Of a DNA stretch of 64,000 bases, positions 8,626 through 27,716 are shown piece after piece. A model generated the notes under the pieces. The model was not told the origin of the DNA, did no database searches, and saw only the letters and a program-made list of their open reading frames with translations. The DNA is taken from NCBI RefSeq assembly GCF_004799035.1, contig NZ_MWIO01000004.1:1-64000 (forward strand), written 5' to 3'. The position numbers were made by a program, and so were the translations under genes. The number at the start of each line of letters is the position of its first letter. Positions within the stretch are counted from its first letter, which is position 1. The DNA comes from Rhodanobacter lindaniclasticus. Its GTDB lineage: Bacteria; Pseudomonadota; Gammaproteobacteria; Xanthomonadales; Rhodanobacteraceae.

Positions 8626-8641
8626 TGGCACGTGGATTGCA
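8626..8641 (+). promoter_or_regulatory. Sigma-54 promoter driving the efflux array
   Basis: TGGCACGTGGATTGCA matches the -24/-12 consensus TGGCACR-N4-TTGCW at every defined position, with GG and GC in the correct register. A start near 8652 would leave about 35 nt of leader before the ATG at 8687, with AGGA at 8674-8677. The nearby bases resemble the 5' end of a tRNA (GGCCGAGTGG) but no tRNA fold follows. Confidence 0.85.
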
Positions 8642-8686: not shown

Positions 8687-9958
8687 ATGATTCGCGACAC
8701 TTCCGCACAGGACAAACTGGTAGAGGTCAAACCCAACCGCAAACGGCAGCTGATCTTCGGCGCCGTCGGCGTGCTCGTGCTCGGCCTGCTGGTGTGGCTG
8801 GCGCCCGGCATCGGGCGGCTGTTTTCCGCCTCCGGCTCGGTGAGCGCCTCGCGGCTGTCGTTCGCCACGGTCGAGCGCGGTCCGTTCGTGCGCGACATCG
8901 CGGCCGAGGGCAAGGTGGTGGCCGCGGTCAGCCCCACCCTGTACGCCACCTCGGGTGGCGCGGTGACGCTGAAGGTGCACGCCGGCGACACGGTGAAGAA
9001 GGGCCAGGTGCTGGCCACCATCGACAGTCCCGAGCTGACCAACAAGCTGGCCCAGGAACAGAGCAACGCCGACGCGATGCAGGTCGACTACATGCGCGCG
9101 CAGGTCGATGCACGCAAGCAGCGTTCCGCGCTGCAGAAGGCCTACGACAACGCCAAGATCGACCTGCAGACCGCCCAGCGCGACCTCGCCCGTTACCAGA
9201 AGGCGTTTGCCCGCGGCGCCGTGCCCAGCATGGACGTCGACCGCGCCAAGGACACCCTGGACAAGGCCAGCATCTCCCTGGAGCACGCCCACAGCGACCT
9301 GGGCATGGACAACGCCAGCCTCAATTTCGACATCCAGTCGAAGAAGCTGGCGCATGACCGCCAGCTGCTGCTGGTGGCCGACCTCAAGCGCCAGGTCGAC
9401 GACCTCAACGTGAAGTCGCCGGTGGACGGCCAGGTCGGTCAGTTGTTCATCGCCGAAAAGGCCACCGTCGCCAAGGATGCGCAGCTGCTCAGCGTGGTCG
9501 ACCTGTCCGCGCTGCAGGTGGAGATGCAGGTGCCGGAGAGTTTCGCCCGCGACCTCGGCATCGGCATGACCGGCGAGATCAGCGGCAACGGCCACACCTG
9601 GAAGGGCATCGTCAGCGCGATCTCGCCCGAGGTGGTCAACGGCCAGGTCGCCGCGCGGCTGCGCTTCGACGGCACCACGCCGAAACAGCTGCGCCAGAAC
9701 CAGCGCCTGTCGGTGCGCGTGCTGCTGGACAAGCGCGACAACGTGCTCACCGTGCAGCGCGGCTCGTTCGTCGACGAATCCGGCGGCAGCTACGCCTACC
9801 TGGTGCACGACGGCATCGCCACCAAGACCCCGATCCGCGTCGGCGCCTCCAGCATCGACAAGGTGGAGATCCTCGAAGGCCTGAAGGAAGGCGACAAGAT
9901 CGTGATCTCCGGCACCGACAGCTTCAAGGGCGCGGCCACGGTCGCGATCAGCAACTGA
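8687..9958 (+). CDS. Periplasmic adaptor (membrane-fusion protein), MacA/HlyD-like
   Basis: 423 residues: a short cytoplasmic N-terminus, one membrane anchor (about residues 21-42), a lipoyl half (GGAVTLKVHAGDTVKKGQVLATIDSPEL), a long alpha-helical hairpin (about 125-240, coiled coil), a second lipoyl half (VKSPVDGQVGQLFIAEKATVAKDAQLLSVVD shape), then beta-barrel and membrane-proximal domains. It should couple the inner-membrane ABC permeases to an outer-membrane channel not encoded here. It is the first gene behind the sigma-54 promoter and the only adaptor for ten downstream permeases. Confidence 0.9.
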   Translation: MIRDTSAQDKLVEVKPNRKRQLIFGAVGVLVLGLLVWLAPGIGRLFSASGSVSASRLSFATVERGPFVRDIAAEGKVVAAVSPTLYATSGGAVTLKVHAGDTVKKGQVLATIDSPELTNKLAQEQSNADAMQVDYMRAQVDARKQRSALQKAYDNAKIDLQTAQRDLARYQKAFARGAVPSMDVDRAKDTLDKASISLEHAHSDLGMDNASLNFDIQSKKLAHDRQLLLVADLKRQVDDLNVKSPVDGQVGQLFIAEKATVAKDAQLLSVVDLSALQVEMQVPESFARDLGIGMTGEISGNGHTWKGIVSAISPEVVNGQVAARLRFDGTTPKQLRQNQRLSVRVLLDKRDNVLTVQRGSFVDESGGSYAYLVHDGIATKTPIRVGASSIDKVEILEGLKEGDKIVISGTDSFKGAATVAISN

Positions 9959-9970
9959 CGCAGATTCACT

Positions 9971-10072
9971 CCCTCCCCTGCCTGCAGGGGAGGGCCGGGG
10001 TGGGGTAGCTCTTCGTCACGCAAGATCAAGGCGTCACCCCCTCCCAGCCTCCCCCTGCGAAGCAGGGGGAGG
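9971..10072. repeat. Two C/G-rich palindromes between adaptor and ATPase genes
   Basis: Two perfect 11-bp hairpins: 9971-9981 with 9984-9994 (CCCTCCCCTGC arms) and 10048-10058 with 10062-10072 (CCTCCCCCTGC arms). They look like the CCCTCCCC/GGGGAGGG interspersed repeats of xanthomonads; related sequence recurs near 30480-30520 and 45338-45365. They could attenuate or stabilise the transcript between the first two genes of the array. Confidence 0.7.
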
Positions 10073-10108
10073 GGCAAAACACCATCACCACCACCAAAGG
10101 ACGCAACC

Positions 10109-10822
10109 ATGCTGAAGATGACCCACCTGTCCAAGGTCTACCGCACCGAAGTGGTGGAGACCTACGCACTGCGCGATTTCAACATCGACGTGAAGGAGGG
10201 CGAGTTCGTGGCCGTGACCGGACCGTCCGGTTCGGGCAAGACCACCTTCCTGACCATCGCCGGCTTGCTGGAGACGTTCACCGGCGGCGAGTACCACCTC
10301 GACGGCGTGGAGGTCAGCAACCTCAACGACAACGCGCGCTCGAAGATCCGCAACGAGAAGATCGGCTTCATCTTCCAGGCGTTCAACCTGATCCCGGATC
10401 TCAACGTGTTCGACAACATCGAGGTGCCGCTGCGCTACCGCGGCATGAAGGCCGCCGAGCGCAAGCAGCGCATCATGGACTCGCTGGAACGCGTCGGCCT
10501 GGCCTCGCGCGCCAAGCATTACCCGGCCGAACTCTCCGGCGGCCAGCAGCAGCGCGTGGCGATCGCCCGCGCGCTGGCCGGTTCGCCGCGCCTGCTGCTG
10601 GCGGACGAACCGACCGGCAACCTGGACACCCAGATGGCCCGCGGCGTGATGGAGCTGCTTGAGGAGATCCACCGCGACGGCGCCACCATCGTGATGGTCA
10701 CGCATGACCCCGAGCTGGCCGCCCGCGCCCAGCGCAACGTGCACATCATCGACGGCCAGGTGGTCGATCTGGCCGAGGAGCCGCGCTTCCACGCCCATGC
10801 GGCTGCAGGGAATCGGGAATAG
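10109..10822 (+). CDS. ABC transporter ATP-binding protein, MacB/LolD type
   Basis: 237-residue nucleotide-binding domain. It has Walker [10 protein letters not shown] (about residues 37-45), Q-loop [12 protein letters not shown], signature [15 protein letters not shown], Walker [13 protein letters not shown] and switch histidine in MVTHD. The DEPTGNLD and FNLIP sequences place it with MacB/LolD/FtsE ATPases, which partner with FtsX-like permeases. It is the only ATPase in the cluster, so it presumably powers all five permease pairs. AAAGGA lies about 10 nt before the ATG. Confidence 0.93.
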
Positions 10823-10885
10823 GGAATCGGAGAGAGCGATCGCGCATGCGTCGGCTTTGACGAAGCCCCAATCCCGGATATCGAG

Positions 10886-12196
10886 ATGTTCACCTACTAC
10901 CTCCAACTCGGACTGCGCAGCCTGCGCCGCAACCCCGCCCTCACTGCGCTGATGGTGATGGCGATCGGTTTCGGCGTGGCGGCGTCGATGATCACGTACT
11001 CCGTGTTCCGTGCCGTGTCGGGCAATCCGATACCAGGCAAGTCGGCGCAGCTGTTCACGCCGCAGGTGGACGGCTGGGGGCCGCAGCAGAACCTGAAGGG
11101 CGAGCCGGCCGAGGCGCTGGGTTACATCGACGCGATGGCGCTGATGCGTGCACACGAGGCCAAGCGCCAGACGTTCCTGTACCCGGTGCAACTGTCGGTG
11201 ATGCTGGGCGGCAGTCGCGACCTTCCATTGAACGCCAACGGCTACGCCGTGACCGCCGACTTCTTCAGCATGTTCGAGGTGCCGTTCCGCTACGGCGGCG
11301 GCTGGAGTGCGCAGGACGACGACGCACGCGCTAGTGCCGTCGTCATCAGCGGCAAGCTCAATGCCAAGCTGTTCGGCGGCGCCGACAGCGTGGGGCGCAC
11401 GTTCAATCTTGGCGGGCATGACTACCACGTGGTGGGCGTCACCAGCCAATGGAACCCGCGGCCACGCTTCTACGACCTGTTCAGCACCAACGGCTTTGCC
11501 GACGAGCCGGACATCTACATGGTGTTCAGTCGTGCGCTGGACCTGCAGATGCGCTCGGGCGGGCGCAACAGTTGCCGCGGCTCGCTCAGCTACACGACCT
11601 GGCAGGGTTATCTGCAGAGCAACTGCGTGTGGATCACGCCGTGGGTGGAACTGGACAGCCCCGCCGAGGTCGCCAGCTACCGCCGCTTCCTCACCAACTA
11701 CGCCGCCGACCAGCAGCACGCGGGCCGCTTCGGCTGGGCAGCCAACGTGCGTCTGCGCGACGTGATGCAGTGGCTCGACTACGAGCACGTGGTGCCGCCG
11801 GAAAGCCGCATCTCGCTGGTGGTGGCGCTGGGCTTTTTCCTGATCTGCCTGGTCAACACCATCGGCCTGCTGCTGGCGAAGTTCATGCGCCGCTCCGGCG
11901 AGATCGGCGTGCGCCGCGCGCTGGGCGCGACGCGGCGCGAGATCTATACCCAATACCTGATCGAGGCCGCCACGATAGGCCTGGCCGGTGGCGTGCTGGG
12001 TCTGCTGCTCACGGCGGTGGGCGTGTCCGGCGTGGGCATCCTGTTCCGGCCGGAGATCGCGAAGCTGGCCCGGCTCGATGTCTCGCTGGTGGGGCTGACC
12101 CTCGTCGTCGCCATCATCGCCACCGTGCTGGCGGCGTTCTACCCGGCGTGGCGCGCGGCACACGTGCAACCCGCCTGGCAACTGAAGTCGAGCTGA
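10886..12196 (+). CDS. FtsX/MacB-type permease, pair 1, type A
   Basis: 436 residues. TM1 is near residues 18-40 and is followed by a large periplasmic domain (about 45-300). Three C-terminal helices follow ([22 protein letters not shown] and two more), ending PAWQLKSS. The cytoplasmic coupling loop reads [23 protein letters not shown]. The periplasmic domain has a Cys pair 17 residues apart (NSC and SNCVW). The GFGVAASM motif in TM1 groups it with the pair-2 A protein. It is 10 nt upstream of its B partner. Substrate unknown. Confidence 0.9.
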
Positions 12197-12206
12197 GGAG
12201 AGTGCC

Positions 12207-13448
12207 ATGAATTTTCAGGTCAGGCCCATCCTCACCGCGCTGCGCCGGCACAAGGCGGGCACCATGCTGATCGCGCTGCAGATCGCGTTGACGCTGGCCA
12301 TCGTGTGCAACGCGCTGTTCATCATCCACCAGCGACTGGGCAACCTGTCCGCGAGCAGCGGCGTGGACGAGGCCAACGTGTTCGTCATCGCCAACATGTG
12401 GGCCGACATGGGCCAGTCGACCTCGCAGATCGATGCGCAGGTGCGCGCCGACCTGATCGCGCTGCGGCAATTGCCGGCCGTGGGCGATGCCACGCCCGCC
12501 AGCGGCTATCCGCTGCGGGGCGGCGGCTGGGACAACTTCGTCACCATGACGCCCGACCAGGTCAAGCCGACCACGGATAGCGCGGTGTACACCGGCGACG
12601 AGCATTTCATCGATACGCTGGGCCTGAATCTCGTCGCGGGACGCAATTTCCGCGCCGATGAGGTGATGGTGATGGGCACCCAGGAAGCTGTCACTCCGCC
12701 GACGGTGATCGTGAGCAAGGCGCTCGCCGACCGTCTGTTCCCCGACGGCAACGCGCTGGGCAAGAGCTTCTATGCGATGGGCACCACGCCGAGCACGATC
12801 GTCGGCATCGTCGACCCGCTGCACCGGCAGGGCGTGGATCAATGGAGCAACGGCTATGCCGGCCAGTCGCTGATCTGGCCGATGCGGGCGGATGATTCGC
12901 GCGGCGTGTACTACATCGTGCGCGCCAGGCCCGGCCAGCTTGCCGACGCCATGCGCGAGGTGCCCAAGGCGCTGTACGCACAAAGCCGCATGCGCATCAT
13001 CGATCCCAAGGACGGCATCCAGGACTACGCCACCATCCGTCACAAGGTCTACGACAGCGACCGCGGCATGGCGATCCTGATGGGCATCATCAGCGTGGTG
13101 CTGCTGGCGATCACCGCGGCCGGCATCGTGGGCCTGACCAGCTTCTGGGTCGGCCAGCGCCGCAAGCAGATCGGCGTGCGCCGCGCACTGGGTGCACGGC
13201 AGCGCGACATCCTCGCGTATTTCCTCACCGAGAACTTCCTGATCAGCGCGTCCGGCGCGGTGCTGGGCATCGTGCTGGGCTTCGCCTTCAACCTGTGGAC
13301 GGTGACCCACTTCGCGATGGACCGGATGTCGCTGGTCTACGTGGGTCTGGGCGTGCTGATGCTGGTGCTGCTTGGCCAGGCCGCCACGCTGGCGCCGGCG
13401 CTGCGCGCCTCGCGCGTGTCGCCGGTGGAGGCCACGCGGAGCGTGTGA
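12207..13448 (+). CDS. FtsX/MacB-type permease, pair 1, type B
   Basis: 413 residues. Type B proteins start with (M)xxRPILxALRRHK and have one N-terminal helix containing AIVCNA. A periplasmic domain shorter than in type A follows, then the FtsX domain with [22 protein letters not shown]. Here the C-terminus is SRVSPVEATRSV. GGAGAG lies 8 nt before the ATG. No periplasmic cysteines. It likely forms a heterodimer with the preceding A protein; the A-B alternation across the array suggests this, but it is not shown. Confidence 0.9.
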   Translation: MNFQVRPILTALRRHKAGTMLIALQIALTLAIVCNALFIIHQRLGNLSASSGVDEANVFVIANMWADMGQSTSQIDAQVRADLIALRQLPAVGDATPASGYPLRGGGWDNFVTMTPDQVKPTTDSAVYTGDEHFIDTLGLNLVAGRNFRADEVMVMGTQEAVTPPTVIVSKALADRLFPDGNALGKSFYAMGTTPSTIVGIVDPLHRQGVDQWSNGYAGQSLIWPMRADDSRGVYYIVRARPGQLADAMREVPKALYAQSRMRIIDPKDGIQDYATIRHKVYDSDRGMAILMGIISVVLLAITAAGIVGLTSFWVGQRRKQIGVRRALGARQRDILAYFLTENFLISASGAVLGIVLGFAFNLWTVTHFAMDRMSLVYVGLGVLMLVLLGQAATLAPALRASRVSPVEATRSV

Positions 13449-13459
13449 ACGACGAATTC

Positions 13460-13525
13460 CTGCAGGGCGCACGAGGTGCTCCTGCAACAACGAAGGCTTC
13501 GCGCACGAAGGTGCGCCCCTGCATG
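13460..13525. repeat. REP-like inverted repeat between permease pairs 1 and 2
   Basis: GCAGGGCGCAC near 13463 pairs with GTGCGCCCCTGC near 13512-13523 with one bulged base. The right half (CGCACGAAGGTGCGCCCCTGC) has the form of a REP unit. It fills most of the 95-bp gap before the next A permease. Confidence 0.5.
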
Positions 13526-13543
13526 TGACAACGGAGAGACGAG

Positions 13544-14860
13544 ATGTTCGCCTACTACCTTGAACTGGCCCTGCGCAGCCTGAAACGCAGCCCCGGACTC
13601 ACCGCACTGATGGTGCTGGCGATCGGCTTCGGCGTGGCCGCGTCGATGACCTCGTGGTCGGTGTTCCGCGCGGTGTCTGGCGACCCGATTCCATGGAAAT
13701 CGTCCAAGCTGTTCGTGCCGCAGATCGACATGTGGGGGCCGAACGGCCGCAGTCCCGACGGCGAGCCGCCGAATGCCATGGACTACACCGACGCTGTCGC
13801 CCTGATGCGCGACCACCGCGCCAAGCGGCAGTCGGCGATGTACCAGATCTCGCCCTCGATCGTGCCGACCGATGCCAGCAAGCATCCGCTCAATGTCAGC
13901 GGGCATGCCGTGTACGGCGAGTTCTTTCCGATGCTGGACGTGCCGTTCCAGTACGGTCGCGGCTGGAGCAGCAGCGACGACGCCAACCGTGCCCAGGTCG
14001 TGGTGATCAGCAGCAAGCTCAACCAGAAGCTGTTCGGCGGCGTCGACAGCGTGGGTCGCATCGTCAATGTCGAAGGCCGGGACTATCGCGTGGTCGGCGT
14101 GCTCGACCATTGGAACCCGCAGCCGCGCTTCTACGACGTGGTCAACAGCGGCGGCTTCTCCACCACCGATGCCGACGTGTTCCTGCCGTTCCAGACCGCA
14201 ATCCAGGCCGACATCACCAACGACGGCAACACCAACTGCAATGCGGTGCCCGACGAGCCGGGCTTCGTCGGCCTGCAGCACTCGCCCTGCGCGTGGATCG
14301 CGTTCATGGCCGAACTTGACGATGCCGCGGCGGTGACGGCGTATCGCGCCTATCTCGACGGCTATGCCAAGGACCAGCAGTCTGCCGGGCGCTTCCGCTG
14401 GGCGCCGAACAACCGCCTGCGCGACGTGCCGGCATGGCTGGAAAACCAGCACGTGGTGCCCAGCGATACCAAGGTGTCCTTGCTGGTGGCGCTGGGCCTG
14501 CTGCTGGTGTGCCTGGTCAATACGGTGGGCCTGCTGCTGGCCAAGTTCCTGCGCCGCAGCAGCGAGATCGGCGTGCGCCGCGCGCTGGGTGCGCCGCGTG
14601 CGGCGATCTACACGCAGTTCCTGGTCGAGGCGGGCATTGTCGGCGCGGCCGGCGGCGTGCTCGGCCTGCTGTTGACCGGCGCCGGCGTGGCCAGCGTGGG
14701 CTGGGTGTTGCCGCGTGACATCGCCTCGCTGGCGCGGATCGACGTGTCGCTGCTGGTGCTGACCCTGCTGGTGGCGGTGGTCGCCACCATGCTGGCCGGC
14801 CTGTATCCCACCTACCGAGCCTCGCGCGTGCAACCCGCGTGGCAGCTGAAGAGCAATTGA
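13544..14860 (+). CDS. FtsX/MacB-type permease, pair 2, type A
   Basis: 438 residues, closely similar to the pair-1 A protein over its whole length ([56 protein letters not shown]). Same topology: TM1, periplasmic domain, three C-terminal helices. The Cys pair is again 17 residues apart (TNC and SPCAW). CGGAGAGACGAG precedes the ATG. It is 10 nt from its B partner, repeating the spacing of pair 1 and supporting duplication of an A-B module. Confidence 0.9.
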   Translation: MFAYYLELALRSLKRSPGLTALMVLAIGFGVAASMTSWSVFRAVSGDPIPWKSSKLFVPQIDMWGPNGRSPDGEPPNAMDYTDAVALMRDHRAKRQSAMYQISPSIVPTDASKHPLNVSGHAVYGEFFPMLDVPFQYGRGWSSSDDANRAQVVVISSKLNQKLFGGVDSVGRIVNVEGRDYRVVGVLDHWNPQPRFYDVVNSGGFSTTDADVFLPFQTAIQADITNDGNTNCNAVPDEPGFVGLQHSPCAWIAFMAELDDAAAVTAYRAYLDGYAKDQQSAGRFRWAPNNRLRDVPAWLENQHVVPSDTKVSLLVALGLLLVCLVNTVGLLLAKFLRRSSEIGVRRALGAPRAAIYTQFLVEAGIVGAAGGVLGLLLTGAGVASVGWVLPRDIASLARIDVSLLVLTLLVAVVATMLAGLYPTYRASRVQPAWQLKSN

Positions 14861-14870
14861 GGATCACGCC

Positions 14871-16127
14871 ATGAAACTGCATCCCATCCTCGCCGCACTG
14901 CGCAAGCACAAGGCCGGTACCGTGCTCATCTCCCTGCAGATCGCGCTGACCCTGGCGATCGTGTGCAATGCGATCTTCATCATCGGCCAGCGCATCGAAC
15001 GGGTGAACCGGCCCACCGGGCTCAACGAGAGCAACCTGCTCCTGGTCACCCAGCAATGGGTGGGCGCGCCGAACGCCGACACCGCCGACGGCGTGGAGAA
15101 ACTCGACGCGATGCAGCGCGAGGATCTGGCCGCATTGCGCAACCTGCCCGGCGTCGTGTCGGTGACGCCGACCAATTCGCTGCCCTTGCTCAACTCCTCC
15201 TGGACCGGCTCGGTGTCGCACAAGCCGGGCGCCCAGCTCGGCGGCAAGGACAACACCCGCACGGCGTACTACTTCATCGGCGACCAGGCAATGGACACGT
15301 TTGGCCTGAAGCTGGTGGCCGGCCGCGCCTTCACTGCCGGCGACGTGCAGCACCAGGGCTTTCGCGACCAGCCGCCGCGGCCGATCGCGATCATCACCAA
15401 GGCCTTGGCGCAAAAGCTGTTCCCCGACGGCAGTGCGGTCGGCAAGGTGATGTACAGCGACGGCAGCAATGCACCGACCACCATCATCGGCGTGGTCGAG
15501 CGGATGCAGACGCCGGCCACCGGCAGCTGGGGCAACGACTTCGCGTGGTACTCGACGCTGATCCCGACCCGGCTGGACGCCAACTTCGCCCGCTACGCCG
15601 TGCGCACCCGGCCCGGCCAGCTCGACAGCGTGATGCGCGCCGTGACCCCGTTGCTGTACAAGGTCAACCCGCTGCGCGTGCTCGACGACGACAGCGTCAA
15701 GTCCTTCGGCGAGATCCGCGCCAAGGCGTACCGCGCCGACGTGGGCATGGCGATCCTGATGGGCGTGATCTGTCTGGTGCTGATCGCGGTCACCGCCGCC
15801 GGCATCGTCGGCCTGACCAGCTTCTGGGTCGGCCAGCGCCATCGGCAGATCGGTGTGCGTCGTGCCCTGGGCGCGCGCAAGATCGACATCCTGCACTACT
15901 TCCAGGTCGAGAACCTGCTGATCGCCGGCATCGGCGTACTGCTTGGCATCGCGCTCGCGATCGGCCTGAACCTGTGGCTGATGACGCGCTACGAGATGAC
16001 CCGGTTGCCGGTGCTGTACGTGCTGGTGGGGGTGCTGGCCATGCTGGTGATCGGCCAGGCTGCCGTGTTCGTGCCCGCGCGGCGCGCGTCCAACGTGCCT
16101 CCGGTGTCGGCCACCCGGGCTGCGTGA
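14871..16127 (+). CDS. FtsX/MacB-type permease, pair 2, type B
   Basis: 418 residues. MKLHPILAALRKHKAG start, AIVCNA in TM1, then a periplasmic domain without cysteines. The FtsX domain has [33 protein letters not shown]. The AAGIVGLTSFWVGQR wording is shared with pair 1 and differs from ALGI(V/A)GLA(S/N)FWV(A/Q)QR in pairs 3-5. GAGGAT precedes the ATG. Role as in pair 1: half of an ABC export permease. Confidence 0.9.
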   Translation: MKLHPILAALRKHKAGTVLISLQIALTLAIVCNAIFIIGQRIERVNRPTGLNESNLLLVTQQWVGAPNADTADGVEKLDAMQREDLAALRNLPGVVSVTPTNSLPLLNSSWTGSVSHKPGAQLGGKDNTRTAYYFIGDQAMDTFGLKLVAGRAFTAGDVQHQGFRDQPPRPIAIITKALAQKLFPDGSAVGKVMYSDGSNAPTTIIGVVERMQTPATGSWGNDFAWYSTLIPTRLDANFARYAVRTRPGQLDSVMRAVTPLLYKVNPLRVLDDDSVKSFGEIRAKAYRADVGMAILMGVICLVLIAVTAAGIVGLTSFWVGQRHRQIGVRRALGARKIDILHYFQVENLLIAGIGVLLGIALAIGLNLWLMTRYEMTRLPVLYVLVGVLAMLVIGQAAVFVPARRASNVPPVSATRAA

Positions 16128-16245
16128 TTTTTGCGGGCCGGGATTCGGCGGACGGGAAGGGGCAATCGCAAGCGCACGGGCTCGCGCCGCTGTCGCTCTT
16201 GCGCATCCCTTCCCGGTTCCGGACCCGGTCTCCTTGGGAGATATC

Positions 16246-17553
16246 ATGTTTGCCTACTATCTCGAACTGGCGCTGCGCAGTCTCAAGCGCAACAGGGCGC
16301 TCACCGCGCTGATGGTGCTGGCGATCGCGCTGGGCATCGGCGCGTCGATGACCACGCTCACGGTGCTGCACGTGCTGTCGGGCGATCCGCTGCCGGGAAG
16401 CAGCGGCACGCTGTACTACCCGCAGATCGACCCGCGCGACAACAGTGGCCAGCTGCCCGGCGCCGAGCCGCCGGAGCAGGTCACCCTGATCGACGGCCTC
16501 AACCTGTTGCACGCCGGACGCGCCGACCGCCAGGCACTGATGACCGGCGGCTCCGTGCCGATCCAGCCCGACTCCGTGGTCGTGGACCCGTTCTACGTGG
16601 AATCGCGTTACACCACCGCCGATTTTTTCCCGATGTTCGGCACGCGGTTTAGCTACGGCCGCGGCTGGAACGCCGCCGACGACGAGGCGAAGGCGCGCGA
16701 GGTGGTGATCAACGGCGAGCTCAACCAGCGCCTGTTCGGTGGCGCCGACAGCGTGGGCCGCAATCTGCGCATCGCCGACGCCAGCTTCCGCATCGTCGGC
16801 GTGCTCGACGACTGGGCACCCAACCCCCACTTCTACGATCTCAACACCGGCTCCTACGGCCGCGCCGAGCAGGTATTCGTACCGTTGCAGACGGCACTGG
16901 ACCTGAAGATGGAGCACAACGGCTCCAACGACTGCTGGGGCAGGGGAGCCGGTGGCGTGGGCCGGATCTATCCCTCGGAAAGCTGCGTGTGGCTGCAGTT
17001 CTGGGCGCAACTGGACAGCCCGGCCAAGGCGGCGGACTACAAGCAGTTCCTGGTGCACTACTCGCAGGAGCAGAAGGCGCTGGGACGCTTCGCGAAGGCG
17101 CCGAACGTGCGCCTGCGCAACATGATGCAGTGGCTGGCCCATGAGCGCGTGGTGCCCGACGACGTGCGCCTGCAGACCGGCCTCGCCTTCGGCTTCCTGC
17201 TGGTCTGCCTGGTCAACACGGTGGGACTGATGCTGGCCAAGTTCATGCGCCGCGCCGGCGACCTCGGCGTGCGCCGCGCGCTGGGCGCCTCCAAGCGCGC
17301 GCTGTTCGGCCAGTTGCTGATCGAATCCGGGGTGGTGGGCGTGGTGGGCGGCGCCGGCGGCCTGCTGCTGGCGGGGTTGGGCCTGTGGGTGGTGCGGCAG
17401 CGTCCGTCCAGCTACGCCGCGCTGGCCCACCTGGACGCGACGATGCTGCTGACCACGTTCGTGCTGGCACTGGGCTCGACCCTGCTGGCGGGCATGCTGC
17501 CGGCATGGCGCGCCTGCCAGGTGCCGCCGGCCCTGCAACTGAAGAGTAATTAG
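16246..17553 (+). CDS. FtsX/MacB-type permease, pair 3, type A
   Basis: 435 residues from the ATG at 16246. An in-frame TTG at 16234 exists, but the ribosome site GGGAG lies between, and all other A proteins begin MFxYYL. TM1 carries the GIGASMTTLTVLHVLSGDPLPG form shared with pairs 4 and 5. The Cys pair is 17 apart (NDCW and ESCVW). The C-terminus is VPPALQLKSN. The upstream 118-bp gap contains a weak GGGAAGGG / CCCTTCCC inverted repeat. Confidence 0.9.
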   Translation: MFAYYLELALRSLKRNRALTALMVLAIALGIGASMTTLTVLHVLSGDPLPGSSGTLYYPQIDPRDNSGQLPGAEPPEQVTLIDGLNLLHAGRADRQALMTGGSVPIQPDSVVVDPFYVESRYTTADFFPMFGTRFSYGRGWNAADDEAKAREVVINGELNQRLFGGADSVGRNLRIADASFRIVGVLDDWAPNPHFYDLNTGSYGRAEQVFVPLQTALDLKMEHNGSNDCWGRGAGGVGRIYPSESCVWLQFWAQLDSPAKAADYKQFLVHYSQEQKALGRFAKAPNVRLRNMMQWLAHERVVPDDVRLQTGLAFGFLLVCLVNTVGLMLAKFMRRAGDLGVRRALGASKRALFGQLLIESGVVGVVGGAGGLLLAGLGLWVVRQRPSSYAALAHLDATMLLTTFVLALGSTLLAGMLPAWRACQVPPALQLKSN

Positions 17554-17575
17554 TGCGCTTTCCCTGCGCGTGGAA

Positions 17576-17593
17576 GCGGCCATCCATGGCCGC
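17576..17593. repeat. Short palindrome in the pair 3 A-B gap
   Basis: GCGGCCAT-CC-ATGGCCGC, 8-bp arms. A sister copy with arms CCGGCCA / TGGCCGG sits in the equivalent gap of pair 4 (20332-20349). In both cases it follows a GTGCGC...CTGCGC stretch, so the same element type occupies the same relative position twice. Confidence 0.6.
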
Positions 17594-17639
17594 ACTACTC
17601 AAGAAAAGCCGCTCCGATCTGGAGCATGAGGCAAGATTC

Positions 17640-18869
17640 ATGGAACTGCGACCGATCCTCTCCACGCTGCGGCGGCACAAGACCACCGCCTGGCTGCTGA
17701 TCCTGGAGATCGCGCTGACCTGCGCGATCGTGTGCAACGCGGTGTTCATGATCAACCATCGCCTGCAGCACATGGAGATGCCCACCGGCATCGACGAACA
17801 TGCGCTGGTGCAGATCCAGCTGGCCGAGGTGACGCCATCGCCGGACATCTACGCGCGGGCAAGGGAGGATCTTGCCGTGATCCGGCAAGTGCCCGGCGTG
17901 CTGGACGTGGCGCTGGTCAACCAGTTGCCGCTGGGCGGCTCCTCGTCCAATGCCAGCATCAAGCTGGACCCGGAGCAGCGCCAGCCGACCCTCAGCGCCG
18001 GCACCTATTTCGGCGGGAACCTGGCGCAGACGATGGGTCTGCGCCTGCTGGCGGGGCGCCACCTGCAGCCCGACGAGGTGCTCGACGCCGACGTGGTGCT
18101 CAAGGCGCTGGCCACCGGCGACACCAAGGTCATCGCACCGGTCACGGTCATCACGCAGGCCATGGCGCAACGGCTGTGGCCGGGCGCCGACGCGCTCGGC
18201 AAGACGATCTACGTCGGCCCGGTCGGCGTGCGCGTGGTCGGCGTGGTCGCCGACCTGGCGCGCGCCAACGCCTACGATGACGCGACCGCGCACTACTCGA
18301 TGATCCTGCCGATGTTCATGGGCGCCGGCAAGGACCAGAGCTACCTGATCCGCACGCGCCCGCAGGATCGCCAGGCCGTGCTGAAAGCCGCCGTGGCGGC
18401 GCTGAAGAAAGCCGACCCGCGGCGGGTGGTGACCGAGCAGCGCACCTACGACGAAGTGCGCGACAAGTTCTTCGAGAACGACCGCTCGATGGCCGGCATC
18501 CTGGTGGGCGCGATCGCCGCGCTGCTGATCGTCACCGCGCTGGGCATCGTCGGCCTGGCCAGTTTCTGGGTGGCGCAACGCCGGCGCACCATCGGCGTGC
18601 GCCGCGCGCTGGGCGCAACGCGCCGCAACATCCTCAACTATTTCCAGACCGAGAACCTGCTGCTGGCCACGATCGGCATCGTGCTCGGCATGGTGCTCGC
18701 CTACGCCATCAACCTGTTCCTGATGCTGCACTACGAGCTGCCGCGATTGCCGGCGATCTATTTCCCGGTGGGCGCGATCGCGCTGTGGCTGATCGGCCAG
18801 CTCGCCGTGCTCGGTCCGGCGCTGCGCGCCGCGGCGGTGCCGCCTGTCGTGGCAACGAGGTCGGTGTGA
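17640..18869 (+). CDS. FtsX/MacB-type permease, pair 3, type B
   Basis: 409 residues starting at MELRPILSTLRRHK, the conserved type-B start. A longer in-frame reading from 17553 would add 29 residues not seen in other B proteins. AIVCNA lies in TM1; FtsX domain [33 protein letters not shown], then helices ending AAAVPPVVATRSV. The last part is nearly identical in sequence to pair 4 B. No periplasmic cysteines. It pairs with the A gene 86 nt upstream. Confidence 0.9.
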   Translation: MELRPILSTLRRHKTTAWLLILEIALTCAIVCNAVFMINHRLQHMEMPTGIDEHALVQIQLAEVTPSPDIYARAREDLAVIRQVPGVLDVALVNQLPLGGSSSNASIKLDPEQRQPTLSAGTYFGGNLAQTMGLRLLAGRHLQPDEVLDADVVLKALATGDTKVIAPVTVITQAMAQRLWPGADALGKTIYVGPVGVRVVGVVADLARANAYDDATAHYSMILPMFMGAGKDQSYLIRTRPQDRQAVLKAAVAALKKADPRRVVTEQRTYDEVRDKFFENDRSMAGILVGAIAALLIVTALGIVGLASFWVAQRRRTIGVRRALGATRRNILNYFQTENLLLATIGIVLGMVLAYAINLFLMLHYELPRLPAIYFPVGAIALWLIGQLAVLGPALRAAAVPPVVATRSV

Positions 18870-18870
18870 C

Positions 18871-18955
18871 GCAGGAGCCCGCTCGCGGGCGATGCCCTTG
18901 ATTTGATCTGCGTCGCGCATTTGAGCAGGAGCATCGCCCGCGAGCGGGCTCCTGC
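18871..18955. repeat. REP doublet (perfect 25-bp inverted repeat)
   Basis: The 25 bases 18871-18895 are exactly complementary to 18931-18955, with a 35-nt spacer. Each arm reads like the GCAGGAGCCCGCTCGCGGGCGA type of REP unit of pseudomonads and xanthomonads, so this is a head-to-head pair (BIME-like). It occupies most of the gap between permease pairs 3 and 4 and will form a long hairpin in the mRNA. Confidence 0.85.
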
Positions 18956-18986
18956 GAAAGAACGAGTCAACAGGAGTAATTCGGAC

Positions 18987-20309
18987 GTGTTCACCTATTA
19001 CCTCGATCTCGCCCTGCGCAGCCTCAAGCGCAACAAGGTGCTCACCGCGCTGATGGTCATCGCCATCGCGGTGGGCATCGGCGCCAGCATGACCACGCTG
19101 ACGGTGATGCATCTGCTCTCCGGCGACCCGGTGCCCACGCGCAGCGGCACGCTGTTCTATCCGCAGGTGGACGGCAACCCGACGCCCGGCGATTTCAAGC
19201 AGCCGCTGGACGTGATGGATTACCAGTCGGCAGTGGACCTGTGGGGCGCGCATCGGGCCGATGCCCAGACGCTGGTGGTGGACAGCCCGGTGCGGCTGAG
19301 CGCGCCGGGGGTCAACCTGCCGACCTTGATGCCGAGCATGCTGTCCACCACCAGCGACTTCTTCCCGATGTTCGACGTGCCGTTCCGCTACGGCAGCGGC
19401 TGGAGCGCGGATGACGATGCCCGGCACGCGCGGGTGGCGGTGATCTCCGACGATCTCAACCACAAGCTGTTCGGCGGCCGCGACAGTGTCGGCCAGGTGC
19501 TGCGCCTGCGCGACACGGACGTGCGCATCGTCGGCGTGCTGCGTCCATGGCGCCCGTCGCCGGTGTTCTACACCGTGGCCGGCGGCCGCTTTGCCAATGG
19601 CGACACCGCGGACTTCTACGGCAAGACGCAGGACGTGTTCACGCCGTTCTTCACCGGTCTCGAACTCAACGACGGCAACTTCCAGCAGTTCACCTGCTGG
19701 CACATGCCCGAGCGGCCGGGCCATCTGCAGAACTCGCCGTGTGCGTGGGTGCGCCTGTGGGTGCAGCTTGGCGACGCCGGCAAGGTCGCCGCGTACAAGC
19801 AGTTCCTGGATGGCTACGCGGCGCAGCAGGCCGCGCTGGGACGCATCGTGCGGCCGCAGAACACGCGCCTGCGCAGCCTGATGCAATGGCTGGACTACAA
19901 CGGCGTGGTGCCCGGCGACGTGCGGCTGCAGACCTGGCTGGCGTTTGCGTTTCTCGCCATCTGCCTGTTCAACATGATCGGCCTGCTGCTGGCGAAGTTC
20001 CTGCGCCGCAGCGGCGAGATCGGCGTGCGCCGCGCGCTCGGCGCCAGCCGCGGCGCGGTGTTCGCGCAATGCCTGGTGGAGGCCGGGCTGGTCGGCTTGA
20101 TCGGCGGCATCGGTGGCCTGGGCCTGACCCTGCTCGGCCTGTGGCTGGTTCGCCGGCAGCCGGTGGCGTACGCCGATCTGGCGCACCTGGACGTGTCGAT
20201 GTTCGTCGCCACCTTCGTCACCGCGATCGCCGCCAGCCTGCTGGCCGGGGTCCTGCCGGCGTTCCGCGCCAGCCGGGTGGCGCCGGGCCTTCAGCTAAAG
20301 ACTTTGTAG
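18987..20309 (+). CDS. FtsX/MacB-type permease, pair 4, type A
   Basis: 440 residues from a GTG start at 18987. CAGGAG lies 10 nt upstream, and the protein then begins (M)FTYYLDLALRSL as in the other A proteins. An earlier in-frame ATG at 18903 would read through the REP element. TM1 GIGASMTTLTVMHLLSGDPVP; coupling loop [23 protein letters not shown]. The Cys pair is 15 residues apart (FTCW and SPCAW) instead of 17. C-terminus VAPGLQLKTL. Confidence 0.88.
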   Translation: MFTYYLDLALRSLKRNKVLTALMVIAIAVGIGASMTTLTVMHLLSGDPVPTRSGTLFYPQVDGNPTPGDFKQPLDVMDYQSAVDLWGAHRADAQTLVVDSPVRLSAPGVNLPTLMPSMLSTTSDFFPMFDVPFRYGSGWSADDDARHARVAVISDDLNHKLFGGRDSVGQVLRLRDTDVRIVGVLRPWRPSPVFYTVAGGRFANGDTADFYGKTQDVFTPFFTGLELNDGNFQQFTCWHMPERPGHLQNSPCAWVRLWVQLGDAGKVAAYKQFLDGYAAQQAALGRIVRPQNTRLRSLMQWLDYNGVVPGDVRLQTWLAFAFLAICLFNMIGLLLAKFLRRSGEIGVRRALGASRGAVFAQCLVEAGLVGLIGGIGGLGLTLLGLWLVRRQPVAYADLAHLDVSMFVATFVTAIAASLLAGVLPAFRASRVAPGLQLKTL

Positions 20310-20331
20310 TGCGCTGTTCCTGCGCAGGAGC

Positions 20332-20349
20332 CCGGCCATCCCTGGCCGG
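20332..20349. repeat. Short palindrome in the pair 4 A-B gap
   Basis: CCGGCCA-TCCC-TGGCCGG, preceded by GTGCGCTGTTCCTGCGC. Sister of the element at 17576-17593. Confidence 0.55.
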
Positions 20350-20395
20350 ACATCTCAGACAGGCACCGTTTTCACCAGGCATCAGGTAACGAGAC

Positions 20396-21610
20396 ATGCA
20401 GATTCGACCCATCCTTGCCGCGTTGCGCCGCCATCGCATGGCCACCGTGCTGATCGCGCTGGAGATCGCGCTGGCCTGCGCGGTGCTGTGCAACGCCTGT
20501 TTCCTGATCGCCGGCCGGATCGACGCGATCCAGGTCGACAGCGGCGTCGACGAGGCCTCGCTGGCGACGGTGCAACTGGCCGGCTACGAGAACGCGCACG
20601 CGGTCGACCTCAACGCCCGCGTGCTGGCCGGGCTGGGCAGCATTGCGGGCGTGCAGTCGGTGAGCCTGCTCAACTCCATCCCGTTCGGCGCGCGCCGCGG
20701 CACCGCGGGCATCACCACGGACATGGCCGGCAAGCACTTCGGCGGCGTGGTCGAGTTCTACGTCGGTGGCCCGGGCAGCCTTTCGGCGTTGGGCACGCGG
20801 CTGGTTGCCGGGCGCAATCCGCAGCCCGACGATTTCCGTCCGTTCACCGCCTTGATGCCGGACGACGCCTCGGTGCAGGTGACGCGGGCACTGGCCGAGC
20901 ACCTGTGGCCGGGCGCCGATCCGCTGGGCAAGGAGTTCTGGCTGGACAAGTCGCACTTTCGCGTGGTCGGCGTGATCGACCACCTGGTGCGACCCGACCC
21001 GGGCGGCTGGCCGGGCGACAGCCGCGACTGGTCGGTGTTCGTGCCGGCGCAGTCGAGTGTCTATCTCTCCGGCAGCTACCTGCTGCGCGCCGCGCCGACG
21101 GACCTGCCGCGGGTGTTGCGCGATGCCCGCGCCGCGATCGCGAAGATCGCCCCGGATGCGGTGCTCGACCAGGACGGCACGCAGACCCTCGGCGACCTGC
21201 GCACCCGCAGTTTCCAGAAGGACCGCGCGATGATCGGCATGCTGGTGGGCGTGATCGTGGCGCTGCTGCTGGTCACCGCCCTGGGCATCGTCGGCCTGGC
21301 CAGTTTCTGGGTGGCGCAGCGGCGGCGGCAGATCGGCATCCGCCGCGCCATCGGCGCCACCCGCCGCGACATCCTGCACTACTTCCAGACCGAGAACTTC
21401 CTGATCGTCAGCTTCGGCATCGTGCTCGGCATGGTGCTGGCCTATGCGCTGAACCTGCTGCTGATGACCCACTACGAATTGCCGCGCCTGCCGCTGGTGT
21501 ACCTGCCGATCGGTGCCGCCGCACTGTGGCTGCTCGGCCAGCTCGCCGTGCTCGGTCCCGCGTTGCGCGCCGCCGCGGTGCCGCCGGTGGTGGCGACCAG
21601 GTCGGTGTGA
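20396..21610 (+). CDS. FtsX/MacB-type permease, pair 4, type B
   Basis: 404 residues: MQIRPILAALRRHRM start, TM1 with CAVLCNA (a variant of AIVCNA), and a periplasmic domain shorter than in other B proteins. The FtsX domain is ALGIVGLASFWVAQRRRQIGIRRAIGATRRDIL, ending AAAVPPVVATRSV. It is most like pair 3 B. No periplasmic cysteines. Confidence 0.9.
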   Translation: MQIRPILAALRRHRMATVLIALEIALACAVLCNACFLIAGRIDAIQVDSGVDEASLATVQLAGYENAHAVDLNARVLAGLGSIAGVQSVSLLNSIPFGARRGTAGITTDMAGKHFGGVVEFYVGGPGSLSALGTRLVAGRNPQPDDFRPFTALMPDDASVQVTRALAEHLWPGADPLGKEFWLDKSHFRVVGVIDHLVRPDPGGWPGDSRDWSVFVPAQSSVYLSGSYLLRAAPTDLPRVLRDARAAIAKIAPDAVLDQDGTQTLGDLRTRSFQKDRAMIGMLVGVIVALLLVTALGIVGLASFWVAQRRRQIGIRRAIGATRRDILHYFQTENFLIVSFGIVLGMVLAYALNLLLMTHYELPRLPLVYLPIGAAALWLLGQLAVLGPALRAAAVPPVVATRSV

Positions 21611-21669
21611 CGAACAAGGGTGCACCCCAGCAGGTGATTTTGGTGCTTGAAGGGAAGGGGGGGAGCAAC

Positions 21670-22980
21670 ATGGTTGGCTACTACATCCACATGGCGGCGC
21701 GCAGCCTGCGGCGAAACCCGGTCCTCACCGGCTTGATGGTGCTGGCGATCGGGCTGGGCATCGGCGCCAGCATGACGATGGTCACCGTGCTGCACGTGAT
21801 GACGGACGACCCGCTGCCGGGGCGCAGCGCGCAGCTCTACACGCCGCACATCGATCCGCTGCCACTTGACTACAAGCAGGACGGCGGCGGTCCCGACGCC
21901 AGCGACAACCTCACCTGGCCCGATGCGATGGCGCTGCTCACGGCGCGACGCGCGACGCGACAGGCGGCGATGGCAGGCGGCAATCTGTTGTTGCGTCCCG
22001 ACCGGGCAGGAGTACGGCCGTTCTATGTGGCCGGCAGATATACCAGCGCGGACTTCTTCACGATGTTCGGCGTGCCGTTCGTGCACGGCGGCGGCTGGAG
22101 CGCCGCTGACGACGCGGCCGGCGCGCAGGTGGTGGTGTTGACCGAGACGGTGGCGCGCAAGCTGTTCGGCACCGCCGATGCGGTGGGGCGCACGGTGCGG
22201 TTGGGCGAGCACGATTACCGGCTGGTCGGGGTCACCACCGACTGGGCACCGAAGCCGTTGTTCTACGCCGACAACGTCGGCAACCAGTACAGCGATGCGG
22301 ATCAGTTCTTCCTGCCCTTCTCTGTTGCGGTGAACCAGGATCTCCAGGTCAGCGGCAACCAGTCCGGCTGGGGCAAGGATGAGAGCGCGTCCAAGCGCAG
22401 CGACACGACGACCTGGCTGCAATTCTGGGTGCAACTGGACACGCCGGCGCAGGTAGCGGCGTACCGTCAGTATCTGGTCGACTACTCGGCGCAACAGAAG
22501 GGGCTGGGTCGTTTCCAGCGCCCGCCCGCCAACGCGAAGTTGTACAGCCTGATGGGCTGGCTTGCGCATGAAAACCTGGTGCCCACGGACGTGCGCCTGC
22601 AATTGTGGCTTGCGCTGGGTTTCCTGTTCGTCTGCATGGTCAACATCGTGGCGTTGCTGCTGGCCAAGTTCCTGCGCCGCAGCGGCGAGATCAGCGTCAG
22701 GCGTGCGCTGGGCGCGCGCCGGCGCGACATCTTCGTCCAGTTCGGCGTCGAGTCGGCATTGATCGGAGTGGCCGGCGGTGCGCTGGGCCTGGCCGTGGCC
22801 CAGCTGGGCCTGTGGAGCATCCGCCAGCGGCCCGACGACTACGCCAGGCTGGCGCAGATGGATGCATCGATGCTGCTGGGCACCCTGATGCTGGCCGTGC
22901 TCGCCAGCATGCTGGCCGGCTTGCTGCCGGCCTGGCGCGCCTGCCGGGTGCCGCCGGCGCTGCAGCTCAAGGCCATGTAG
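21670..22980 (+). CDS. FtsX/MacB-type permease, pair 5, type A
   Basis: 436 residues. ATG at 21670 is preceded by GGGGGGAG. It begins MVGYYIHMAARSLRRNP; TM1 GIGASMTMVTVLHVMTDDPLPG. The coupling loop is RRSGEISVRRALGARRRDIF (ISVRR instead of IGVRR). It lacks the periplasmic Cys pair of the other four A proteins: the CxW position reads TTW and the upstream Cys is Gly. Otherwise the topology is unchanged and it ends VPPALQLKAM. It is 62 nt from its B partner. Confidence 0.9.
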   Translation: MVGYYIHMAARSLRRNPVLTGLMVLAIGLGIGASMTMVTVLHVMTDDPLPGRSAQLYTPHIDPLPLDYKQDGGGPDASDNLTWPDAMALLTARRATRQAAMAGGNLLLRPDRAGVRPFYVAGRYTSADFFTMFGVPFVHGGGWSAADDAAGAQVVVLTETVARKLFGTADAVGRTVRLGEHDYRLVGVTTDWAPKPLFYADNVGNQYSDADQFFLPFSVAVNQDLQVSGNQSGWGKDESASKRSDTTTWLQFWVQLDTPAQVAAYRQYLVDYSAQQKGLGRFQRPPANAKLYSLMGWLAHENLVPTDVRLQLWLALGFLFVCMVNIVALLLAKFLRRSGEISVRRALGARRRDIFVQFGVESALIGVAGGALGLAVAQLGLWSIRQRPDDYARLAQMDASMLLGTLMLAVLASMLAGLLPAWRACRVPPALQLKAM

Positions 22981-23042
22981 CGCGCCTTGCGTCCGTTGGA
23001 ACCGGCGTGGCCGGCTTCCTTCACGAAAGACAGGTAACCATC

Positions 23043-24281
23043 ATGCAACTGCGACCGATTCTTTCCACCCTGCGCCATCACAAGCTCACATCCATCCTGC
23101 TGACCCTGCAGGTCGCCTTCACTTGTGCGATCGTCTGCAACGTGGTGTTCATGGTGGCCAAGCGCGTGGAGCGTGCCAGCGTGGCCACCGGCATCGTCGA
23201 GAACGAGTTGTCGGTGATCCACAGCAGCGGCATCGAGAAGAACGAGAACAAGCAGGCGCGCAACCAGGCCGATCTTGCCGCCTTGCGCGCGATTCCCGGC
23301 GTGACATCGGTGGCGGCGGTGAGTTATTCGCTGCCGTTGAACCACAACAGTTCCTCACGCGGCGTCTGTCCCGACCAGGCATCACTGCAACGCGCGATGC
23401 AGCAGCGTTCCGCCGATGGCACGAGCTGCATGACGCCAAGCATTTACGATGGTACGCCGGGGCTGATCGATACCCTTGGCCTGCATCTCGTCGCCGGACG
23501 CCGGTTCCAGCCGGACGACTACGTCGTGGGCATGGGGCATACGCCGGCGGTAGCCATCATCAGCAGCGCGCTGGCCCGGCGCCTCTACCCGAACCAGTCG
23601 GCGCTGGGCAAGGACATGTACCTGGGCCATTCTGTCATCCGCGTGGTGGGTATCGTGGAGACTTTGCTGCGCCCGAGTCTGCGCGATCCGGGCACGGAGG
23701 GCGACAGCATGCTCTGGCCGCAACTGCCCGACCTTTCCGGCGTCACCTACCTGTTGCGCAGCGCGCCGGGCGATCGCCGGCGCGTGCTCGAGGCTGCCGA
23801 GGCCGCTCTGCTCAAGGTCAGCGCCAGCCGTCTCATCGATCCCAGGCGGGTGCAGACCTATACGCAGATCCGCCATGACTATTTCCAGCGCGACACCACC
23901 ATGATCGGCCTGCTGGTGGCTTCCGCCTCGGGCCTGCTGTTCGTCACGGCACTCGGCATCGCCGGACTGGCCAATTTCTGGGTGCAGCAGCGCTGGCGCA
24001 GCATCGGCATCCGGCGCGCGGTCGGCGCCACGCGCGGCGACATCCTGCGCTACTTCCAGGGCGAAAACTTCCTGATCGTCGGCGCCGGCATCGTGCTCGG
24101 CGGCGTGCTGGCGGTGCTGCTCAACCTGCTGCTCATGGCGCACTACGAGCTGCCTCGCCTGCCGCTGTGGTACTTGCCCATCGGCGCGGCGGTACTGTGG
24201 GTGCTCGGCCAGCTGTCGGTGCTGTCGCCGGCGCGGCGTGCAGCGCGCGTACCGCCGGTGGCGGCGATGCGTTCGGCATGA
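23043..24281 (+). CDS. FtsX/MacB-type permease, pair 5, type B
   Basis: 412 residues: MQLRPILSTLRHHKL start, AIVCNVVFM in TM1. The FtsX domain is ALGIAGLANFWVQQRWRSIGIRRAVGATRGDIL, ending ARVPPVAAMRSA. Unlike the other four B proteins it has two periplasmic cysteines 20 residues apart (GVCPD and TSCMT), inside a segment that looks like an insertion. Since its A partner lost its Cys pair, the redox feature appears to have moved within pair 5. It ends the permease array. Confidence 0.9.
   Translation: MQLRPILSTLRHHKLTSILLTLQVAFTCAIVCNVVFMVAKRVERASVATGIVENELSVIHSSGIEKNENKQARNQADLAALRAIPGVTSVAAVSYSLPLNHNSSSRGVCPDQASLQRAMQQRSADGTSCMTPSIYDGTPGLIDTLGLHLVAGRRFQPDDYVVGMGHTPAVAIISSALARRLYPNQSALGKDMYLGHSVIRVVGIVETLLRPSLRDPGTEGDSMLWPQLPDLSGVTYLLRSAPGDRRRVLEAAEAALLKVSASRLIDPRRVQTYTQIRHDYFQRDTTMIGLLVASASGLLFVTALGIAGLANFWVQQRWRSIGIRRAVGATRGDILRYFQGENFLIVGAGIVLGGVLAVLLNLLLMAHYELPRLPLWYLPIGAAVLWVLGQLSVLSPARRAARVPPVAAMRSA

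Positions 24282-26372: not shown

Positions 26373-27716
<1,344 letters not shown>

Follow-up and report, generated by a model that had tools for sequence, protein, structure and literature searches.

Type VII ABC systems include FtsEX and YbbAP-TesA (available text of PMC12646458), and a permease heterodimer with a separate ATPase is a known layout in this superfamily: LolCDE has a separate ATPase together with a heterodimer of two 4-TM permeases, and needs no adaptor (available text of PMC5985334). Sharing of one ATPase among several permease sets is known from ABC importers; MceG serves the YrbE-A/B permeases, for which the sharing is experimentally supported (available text of PMC9947336), and MsmK (available text of PMC4519317), as also MsiK, is one ATPase shared among importer permease sets. 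Searching the open-access literature, with subscription papers mostly outside, we found no report of ATPase sharing in MacB-fold systems, or of a permease array such as the one described here.

We analysed a 64-kb window, by which we mean the whole stretch of 64,000 nucleotides, on contig C44 of the 4.06 Mb draft genome of Rhodanobacter lindaniclasticus; the nearest named relatives by ATPase are also Rhodanobacter. The window carries on its + strand, in order, a TonB receptor, an adaptor, an ABC ATPase, five A-B permease pairs, a DUF885 protein, an NtrC-type regulator and a sensor kinase, and a sister operon lies on contig C28 of the same genome:

5932-8421, + strand, TonB receptor
8626..8641, + strand, sigma-54 (-24/-12) promoter TGGCACGTGGATTGCA, 11/11 consensus positions
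8687..9958, + strand, periplasmic adaptor of the HlyD/RND_mfp family, MacA-like, 423 aa (TIGR01730 141.3 bits, cut-off 94.9; matches to MacA in the PDB)
10109..10822, + strand, ABC ATPase of the LolD/MacB class, the single motor, 237 aa (PF00005)
10886..12196, + strand, permease A1 (N-half ADOP type)
12207..13448, + strand, permease B1 (C-half ADOP type)
13544..14860, + strand, permease A2
14871..16127, + strand, permease B2
16246..17553, + strand, permease A3
17640..18869, + strand, permease B3
18987..20309, + strand, permease A4, with a GTG start
20396..21610, + strand, permease B4
21670..22980, + strand, permease A5
23043..24281, + strand, permease B5
24369..26195, + strand, DUF885 protein, an optional passenger (PF05960 579.3 bits)
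26373..27716, + strand, NtrC-type sigma-54 response regulator (PF00072, PF00158, PF02954)
28197..29636, + strand, sensor histidine kinase (PF02518 80.8 bits, over the cut-off; HAMP PF00672 21.9 bits, under the cut-off of 25)
C28:38000-56000 (L021), sister operon: adaptor, ATPase, two fused ADOP permeases, sigma-54 regulator, kinase

The initial annotation had described an ATPase and an adaptor followed by ten permeases of two types, and this observation is confirmed: the coordinates, the gene order, the protein lengths (A 435-440 aa, B 404-418 aa) and the strict alternation of A with B all hold, the A-B gaps are 10, 10, 86, 86 and 62 nt as it gave them, and the A and B motifs that it listed are present in our alignments. 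Its end point of 24281 is right for the array itself, but the conserved unit extends on to the regulator and the kinase. Its interpretation as a whole, of an array grown by duplication whose heterodimers share one engine and mix their specificities, is partly supported. All ten permeases are open frames on the + strand, and the array is no chance product, because its paralogues share 45-58% identity (A) and 39-50% (B). Only some relatives have the DUF885 gene, placed after the last pair and before the regulator. We rejected the TonB receptor as a constant part, finding a profile match upstream on the same strand in just 3/80 named loci.

Identity of the permease pairs

FtsX (PF02687) and MacB_PCD (PF12704) domains score above the Pfam cut-offs in 10/10 permeases, each permease type has four hydrophobic regions, and the AlphaFold models of A1 and B1 (mean pLDDT 87.8 and 93.1) match MacB best, followed by the S. 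pneumoniae MacAB-like pump (5xu1), LolC/E, HrtB and YbbP; taken together, these are the marks of type VII permeases, with four TM helices, a large periplasmic domain inserted from TM1 to TM2, and FtsX as the C-terminal domain. The ATPase belongs with the LolD/MacB class by its PF00005 domain and by its best solved relatives, the 5xu1 ATPase, MJ0796, MacB and LolD. In the periplasmic domain of A, two nearly invariant cysteines (C230 and C247 of A1) could form a disulphide; the nearly invariant residues listed for B include no cysteine.

The ADOP permeases form a family named for the absence of an ATPase. Along the ADOP profile (TIGR03434, 803 positions) 5/5 A proteins match approximately positions 5-401 and 5/5 B proteins match 410-802, so that a pair corresponds to two ADOP halves, separately encoded: A is the N-half and B the C-half in 10/10 cases. 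Each half scores 151-191 bits against a cut-off of 622.3 for the full-length double permease, a score that a half can hardly reach. The window thus differs from ADOP proper in that the permease is split over two genes and an ATPase adjoins it. Judging from these profile and model matches, we take an A-B pair to be one split type VII ABC permease, presumably a LolC/LolE-like heterodimer. In the C28 sister operon the two ADOP permeases are fused and pass the cut-off (630.8 and 650.9 bits); its ATPase is 55% and its sigma-54 regulator 43.5% identical to those of the window, and a sigma-54-like site lies inside the 5′ part of its longest adaptor frame.

With MacAB-TolC the window system has in common the 4-TM permease fold, the large periplasmic domain, the MacA-like adaptor and the LolD-class ATPase, but here the ATPase is separate, the permease is presumed to be a heterodimer and there are five pairs per ATPase. 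MacB proper was rejected: the ATPase is a gene of its own rather than fused to the permease N-terminus, and the scores with the MacB equivalog fall far under 966. The separate ATPase and the two 4-TM permeases recall LolCDE, which in contrast works without the adaptor and the many pairs present here. This identity was also rejected, as the window proteins score far under the LolC/E and LolD equivalog cut-offs; a LolD and a LolCE that pass their own cut-offs are located on contig C56 of the host genome. DarD is the best NCBIfam match for the ATPase, and the adaptor matches include DarC. We nevertheless set aside the DarBCD darobactin exporter, with all scores under cut-off: DarD 256.3 against 375, DarC 85.5 against 450, and DarB 18-31 against 700 (in two B proteins only). 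The likeness to MceG, MsmK and MsiK is that several permease sets accompany one ATPase gene, here at one locus; those systems, however, are importers of other types, and sharing is experimentally backed for MceG whereas here we infer it from the genes.

Kinship with FtsEX and YbbAP-TesA in the type VII superfamily allows a reading in which this would be no solute exporter at all, and its pairs would act by envelope mechanotransmission to activate or feed different periplasmic partners, as the DUF885 protein linked in some loci might suggest. We consider this unlikely: DUF885 is not constant, while a MacA/RND-type adaptor stands at nearly all ATPase loci with room for one (the exceptions are L080 and L113), which points instead to a trans-envelope conduit.

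The ATPase and the number of pairs among relatives

An A protein was found in 139/147 genomes of the family (E <= 1e-40), in 1 to at least 11 copies, and the ATPase in 138/147 (E <= 1e-90), once in 137 of them and twice in G012; both occur in 138/147 genomes, neither in 8, and A alone in G069. In this last genome, a single contig, a long A-B array (L095) accompanies an ATPase frame that is interrupted (6623-7162, a 179-aa ORF); the gene may truly be lost, or the break may be an error of sequencing.

We read the order of genes in 40 stretches (38 genomes), in 80 named loci and in 19 further stretches; these are draft genomes, and the locus counts given here and for the promoter scan hold a few repeats, where the same genome appears both named and unnamed (for example L063/L107). 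A regulator follows the pairs in 65/124 loci, and the other 59 have no regulator match within the viewed stretch. Where the regulator is in view, 60/65 loci read exactly ATPase-(AB)n-regulator and the other 5 have an extra B or a B fragment; among the 59 partly viewed loci, five (L064, L066, L101, L102 and L145) show a doubled A or B match, from split frames or an extra B. No second ATPase was found between pairs on the same strand in the loci read, and the single ATPase per array proposed in the initial annotation is thereby borne out (single copy in 137/138 ATPase-bearing genomes). Pair number, whose variation it had thought worth surveying, ranges from 1 to 12 among relatives beside one ATPase; the longest annotated arrays hold 11 pairs (G041, G054) and 12 pairs (G022), each in a two-stretch view. 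Locus L113 reads as a mirror image around two identically scoring ATPase copies, without an adaptor match; it has the look of an artefact of assembly, and we used just one arm.

Three or more pairs are present in 4/4 Stenotrophomonas and 1/2 Luteimonas loci, and a single pair in 3/3 named Lysobacter, 4/4 named Roseateles and 2/2 named Massilia loci; the 11 Xanthomonas loci comprise seven with a single pair, three with three or more and one with extra B matches. Across the order the ATPase is found in 142/250 genomes (E <= 1e-85), twice in a few. A class-wide draw, with up to 4 candidates scored in each genome, gave an A protein in only 10/369 genomes (E <= 1e-60), of which 5 are outside the order with one copy each. 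A plasmid search placed the ATPase in three Pseudoalteromonas records, at two places each; one place, viewed with its annotation, has a single pair, and a second record carries no annotation at that point. Sharing is not the sole arrangement: both G012 and G014 possess another A-bearing locus, which comes with a more diverged ATPase of its own. One ATPase beside one to twelve pairs points to an exporter that can expand, its many membrane units running on a common engine.

The coupling helix, placed in the models by its position between TM2 and TM3, covers residues 337-345 of A1 and 319-327 of B1. Over 279 modules the best-conserved 18-residue window of A (0.89) and of B (0.88) falls in the coupling-helix stretch, and the periplasmic parts are least conserved (0.56 and 0.45). 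A conserved coupling helix with varied periplasmic domains fits a common motor with varied working ends, but is consistent with it rather than decisive, because permeases of this kind should have conserved coupling helices anyway.

Alternatively, only the first pair, or the first two, might use the window ATPase, with the later pairs depending on other LolD-class ATPases. The host genome has seven more ATPase frames, 40-55% identical to the window ATPase, and the C28 operon has a like layout and a sigma-54 regulator; its 55% identical ATPase could also serve some of the pairs, which speaks against sharing of a single motor. The initial annotation had named just such pairings, of other ATPases with individual permeases, as evidence against its model. 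Each of these seven next-best ATPases, however, has its own FtsX-domain permeases next to it, coupling helices resemble each other across the modules, and the window-type ATPase stays single even beside the 11- and 12-pair arrays; we therefore regard this alternative as distinctly improbable.

Inheritance of A and B as modules

From 295 complete A-B modules we retained 279 unique ones. Among 52 loci with three or more complete pairs, an A and its B partner have their nearest counterparts in one and the same module of the other locus in 9567/11169 comparisons (chance 26%), reciprocal-best A proteins have the matching B in 3072/3232 cases, and the distance matrices of A and B correlate (mirror-tree r 0.92, against 0.18 with B shuffled within genomes). 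A and B are inherited as modules; their trees agree, as expected from the modular duplication that the initial annotation had proposed. Its division of pairs 1-2 from pairs 3-5 is also real: in a midpoint-rooted tree of the 279 modules, window pairs 1 and 2 group together (support 0.999) apart from pairs 3, 4 and 5, among which the branching has weak support (0.47-0.73). The further idea of "two rounds" of duplication is too simple, because the subfamilies occur in other genera, the deeper ones including members of the Xanthomonadaceae, and the number of copies varies between 1 and 12. The pair 1 proteins have orthologues of 81-93% identity in the eight nearest loci, against 39-58% to their own neighbours, which makes the duplications old. 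For pair 5, close relatives are confined to a few loci (81/75% at best, then 71/68%).

A free mixing of any A with any B, giving up to 25 heterodimers, could draw on the invariant core that all A proteins have in common, and likewise all B proteins; this combinatorial scheme, part of the initial annotation, is disfavoured by the strong co-inheritance of A with B, for the one shared history per module is what fixed partners would leave, even if close linkage alone would also suffice to produce it. We hold free mixing to be very improbable, and choice among fixed pairs fits better.

Compared with chosen close orthologues, the ten permeases have dN/dS of 0.06-0.37 and the ATPase 0.05-0.18, which shows the permeases to be under purifying selection. 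We can hardly credit that the additional pairs serve as redundant dosage or are relics in decay, without separate function: modules do decay, for G116 has broken A frames and 5/65 full-view loci have a surplus B gene or a piece of one, but the window's ten permeases are open frames, only 39-58% identical, that have orthologues elsewhere among the loci and show dN/dS well under 1. The G116 frames belong to L064, where two array A genes read as split matches, one of them with an internal TAA. B3 (17640-18869) differs from module 3 of L098 (Rhodanobacter 67-28) by a dS of 0.045, the five other permeases compared giving 0.14-0.26; a recent exchange of this one gene is possible.

A motor with many partners might be held back more in its evolution. 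Relative to the distance between regulators, ATPase distance came to 0.55 where a locus has several pairs and 0.71 where it has one (19 and 45 loci). Such hub constraint is a hint only, because the locus pairs are non-independent, the adaptor ratio also fell (1.63 against 2.01), ATPase/adaptor stayed almost the same (0.34 against 0.36), and in the closest bin the multi-pair (0.63) and single-pair (0.61) ratios showed no difference.

Probable sigma-54 control, unlinked pairs and a proposed mechanism

The promoter at 8626 starts 61 nt before the first base of the adaptor gene, and is the only perfect TGGCAC-N5-TTGC in the 64-kb window; our scores count matches to 11 positions of what we take to be the sigma-54 -24/-12 consensus. 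With one mismatch allowed there are 6 matches in the window against 7.7 expected, and because of this the evidence for the promoter is its position and conservation, not its count. A site of at least 9/11 was found within 350 nt upstream of the adaptor in 113 of 116 loci scanned, out of 121 (shuffled mean 6.2), and 111 of these 113 sites stand 27-78 nt before the adaptor; those of L064 and L084 lie far from the usual place, and three loci score under 9 of 11. Besides the 8626 site, no zero-mismatch site that could act as an internal sigma-54 promoter was found in the window's array. A sigma-70 scan of the window returned 0 promoters against 1.6 expected, and a scan for terminator-like sites 11 against 6.5 expected, neither yielding sites of use. 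Together, the predicted promoter and the locus's own NtrC-type regulator and kinase indicate that expression would be signal-controlled. The terms permease, efflux, macrolide, ABC transport and FtsX are absent from the main text of Francke 2011 (PMC3162934).

Some pairs lie away from any motor. We looked at eight genomes (five of genus g24), at one 20-kb stretch in each, chosen among the A matches listed and not at random, with the short-contig L185 and L187 left out. Each stretch has one to three open-frame A-B pairs, lying either on a contig other than that of the ATPase locus or, in the single-contig genomes G024 and G083, at a distance: about 1.26 Mb in G024, and in G083 3.0 Mb as measured on the contig, which a circular chromosome would shorten to about 0.25 Mb. 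No ATPase- or adaptor-profile match (domain E <= 1e-6) was found in any of these stretches. Four of the five loci from g24 have a sigma-54-like site 79-100 nt before the first A, scoring 9, 9, 9 and 10 of 11, where shuffles gave means of 6.3-6.8 and maxima of 8-9, so that the scores of 9 equal the chance maximum; the fifth (L186) has its best score, 9, at 265 nt, and the three loci from other genera reach 4-6. These unlinked pairs either need a motor in trans or are idle.

We think it likely that the window encodes an expandable, sigma-54-controlled type VII exporter or extractor of the MacB/LolCDE class, in which one ATPase, and probably one adaptor, serve several specificity pairs of fixed partners. 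The genes present, the ADOP split, one ATPase beside many pairs, the joint inheritance of modules, purifying selection and the conservation of coupling helix and promoter are shown by our data; physical sharing of ATPase and adaptor, transport direction, channel and substrate are what we infer in this. A signal at the kinase would switch the operon on; a dimer of the single ATPase would then dock on the coupling helices of whichever A-B pair is present, and drive the periplasmic domains of that pair by mechanotransmission. These domains could pass a substrate, from the periplasm or the membrane, on to the adaptor conduit, the single adaptor probably joining each pair to an outer-membrane channel encoded elsewhere. 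As the periplasmic domains differ from pair to pair, each pair would be a specificity module on the common motor.

Considering the family more widely, we lean slightly towards a plug-in exporter, with a constant ATPase and adaptor as its motor and up to twelve swappable split-ADOP pairs, of which some are unlinked and act in trans, the modules being gained and lost under one sigma-54 switch. One-ATPase sharing has already been reported for importers (MceG and MsmK, in the available texts cited above), and the range of copy number from 1 to 12 is a natural series for testing how one motor serves many partners. If the plug-in exporter is true, it would show a way in which "orphan" ADOP permeases, which lack an ATPase, could get their power, and offer a route to their function; in many bacteria from the environment or associated with plants, a set of envelope transporters would be under the control of one small ATPase.
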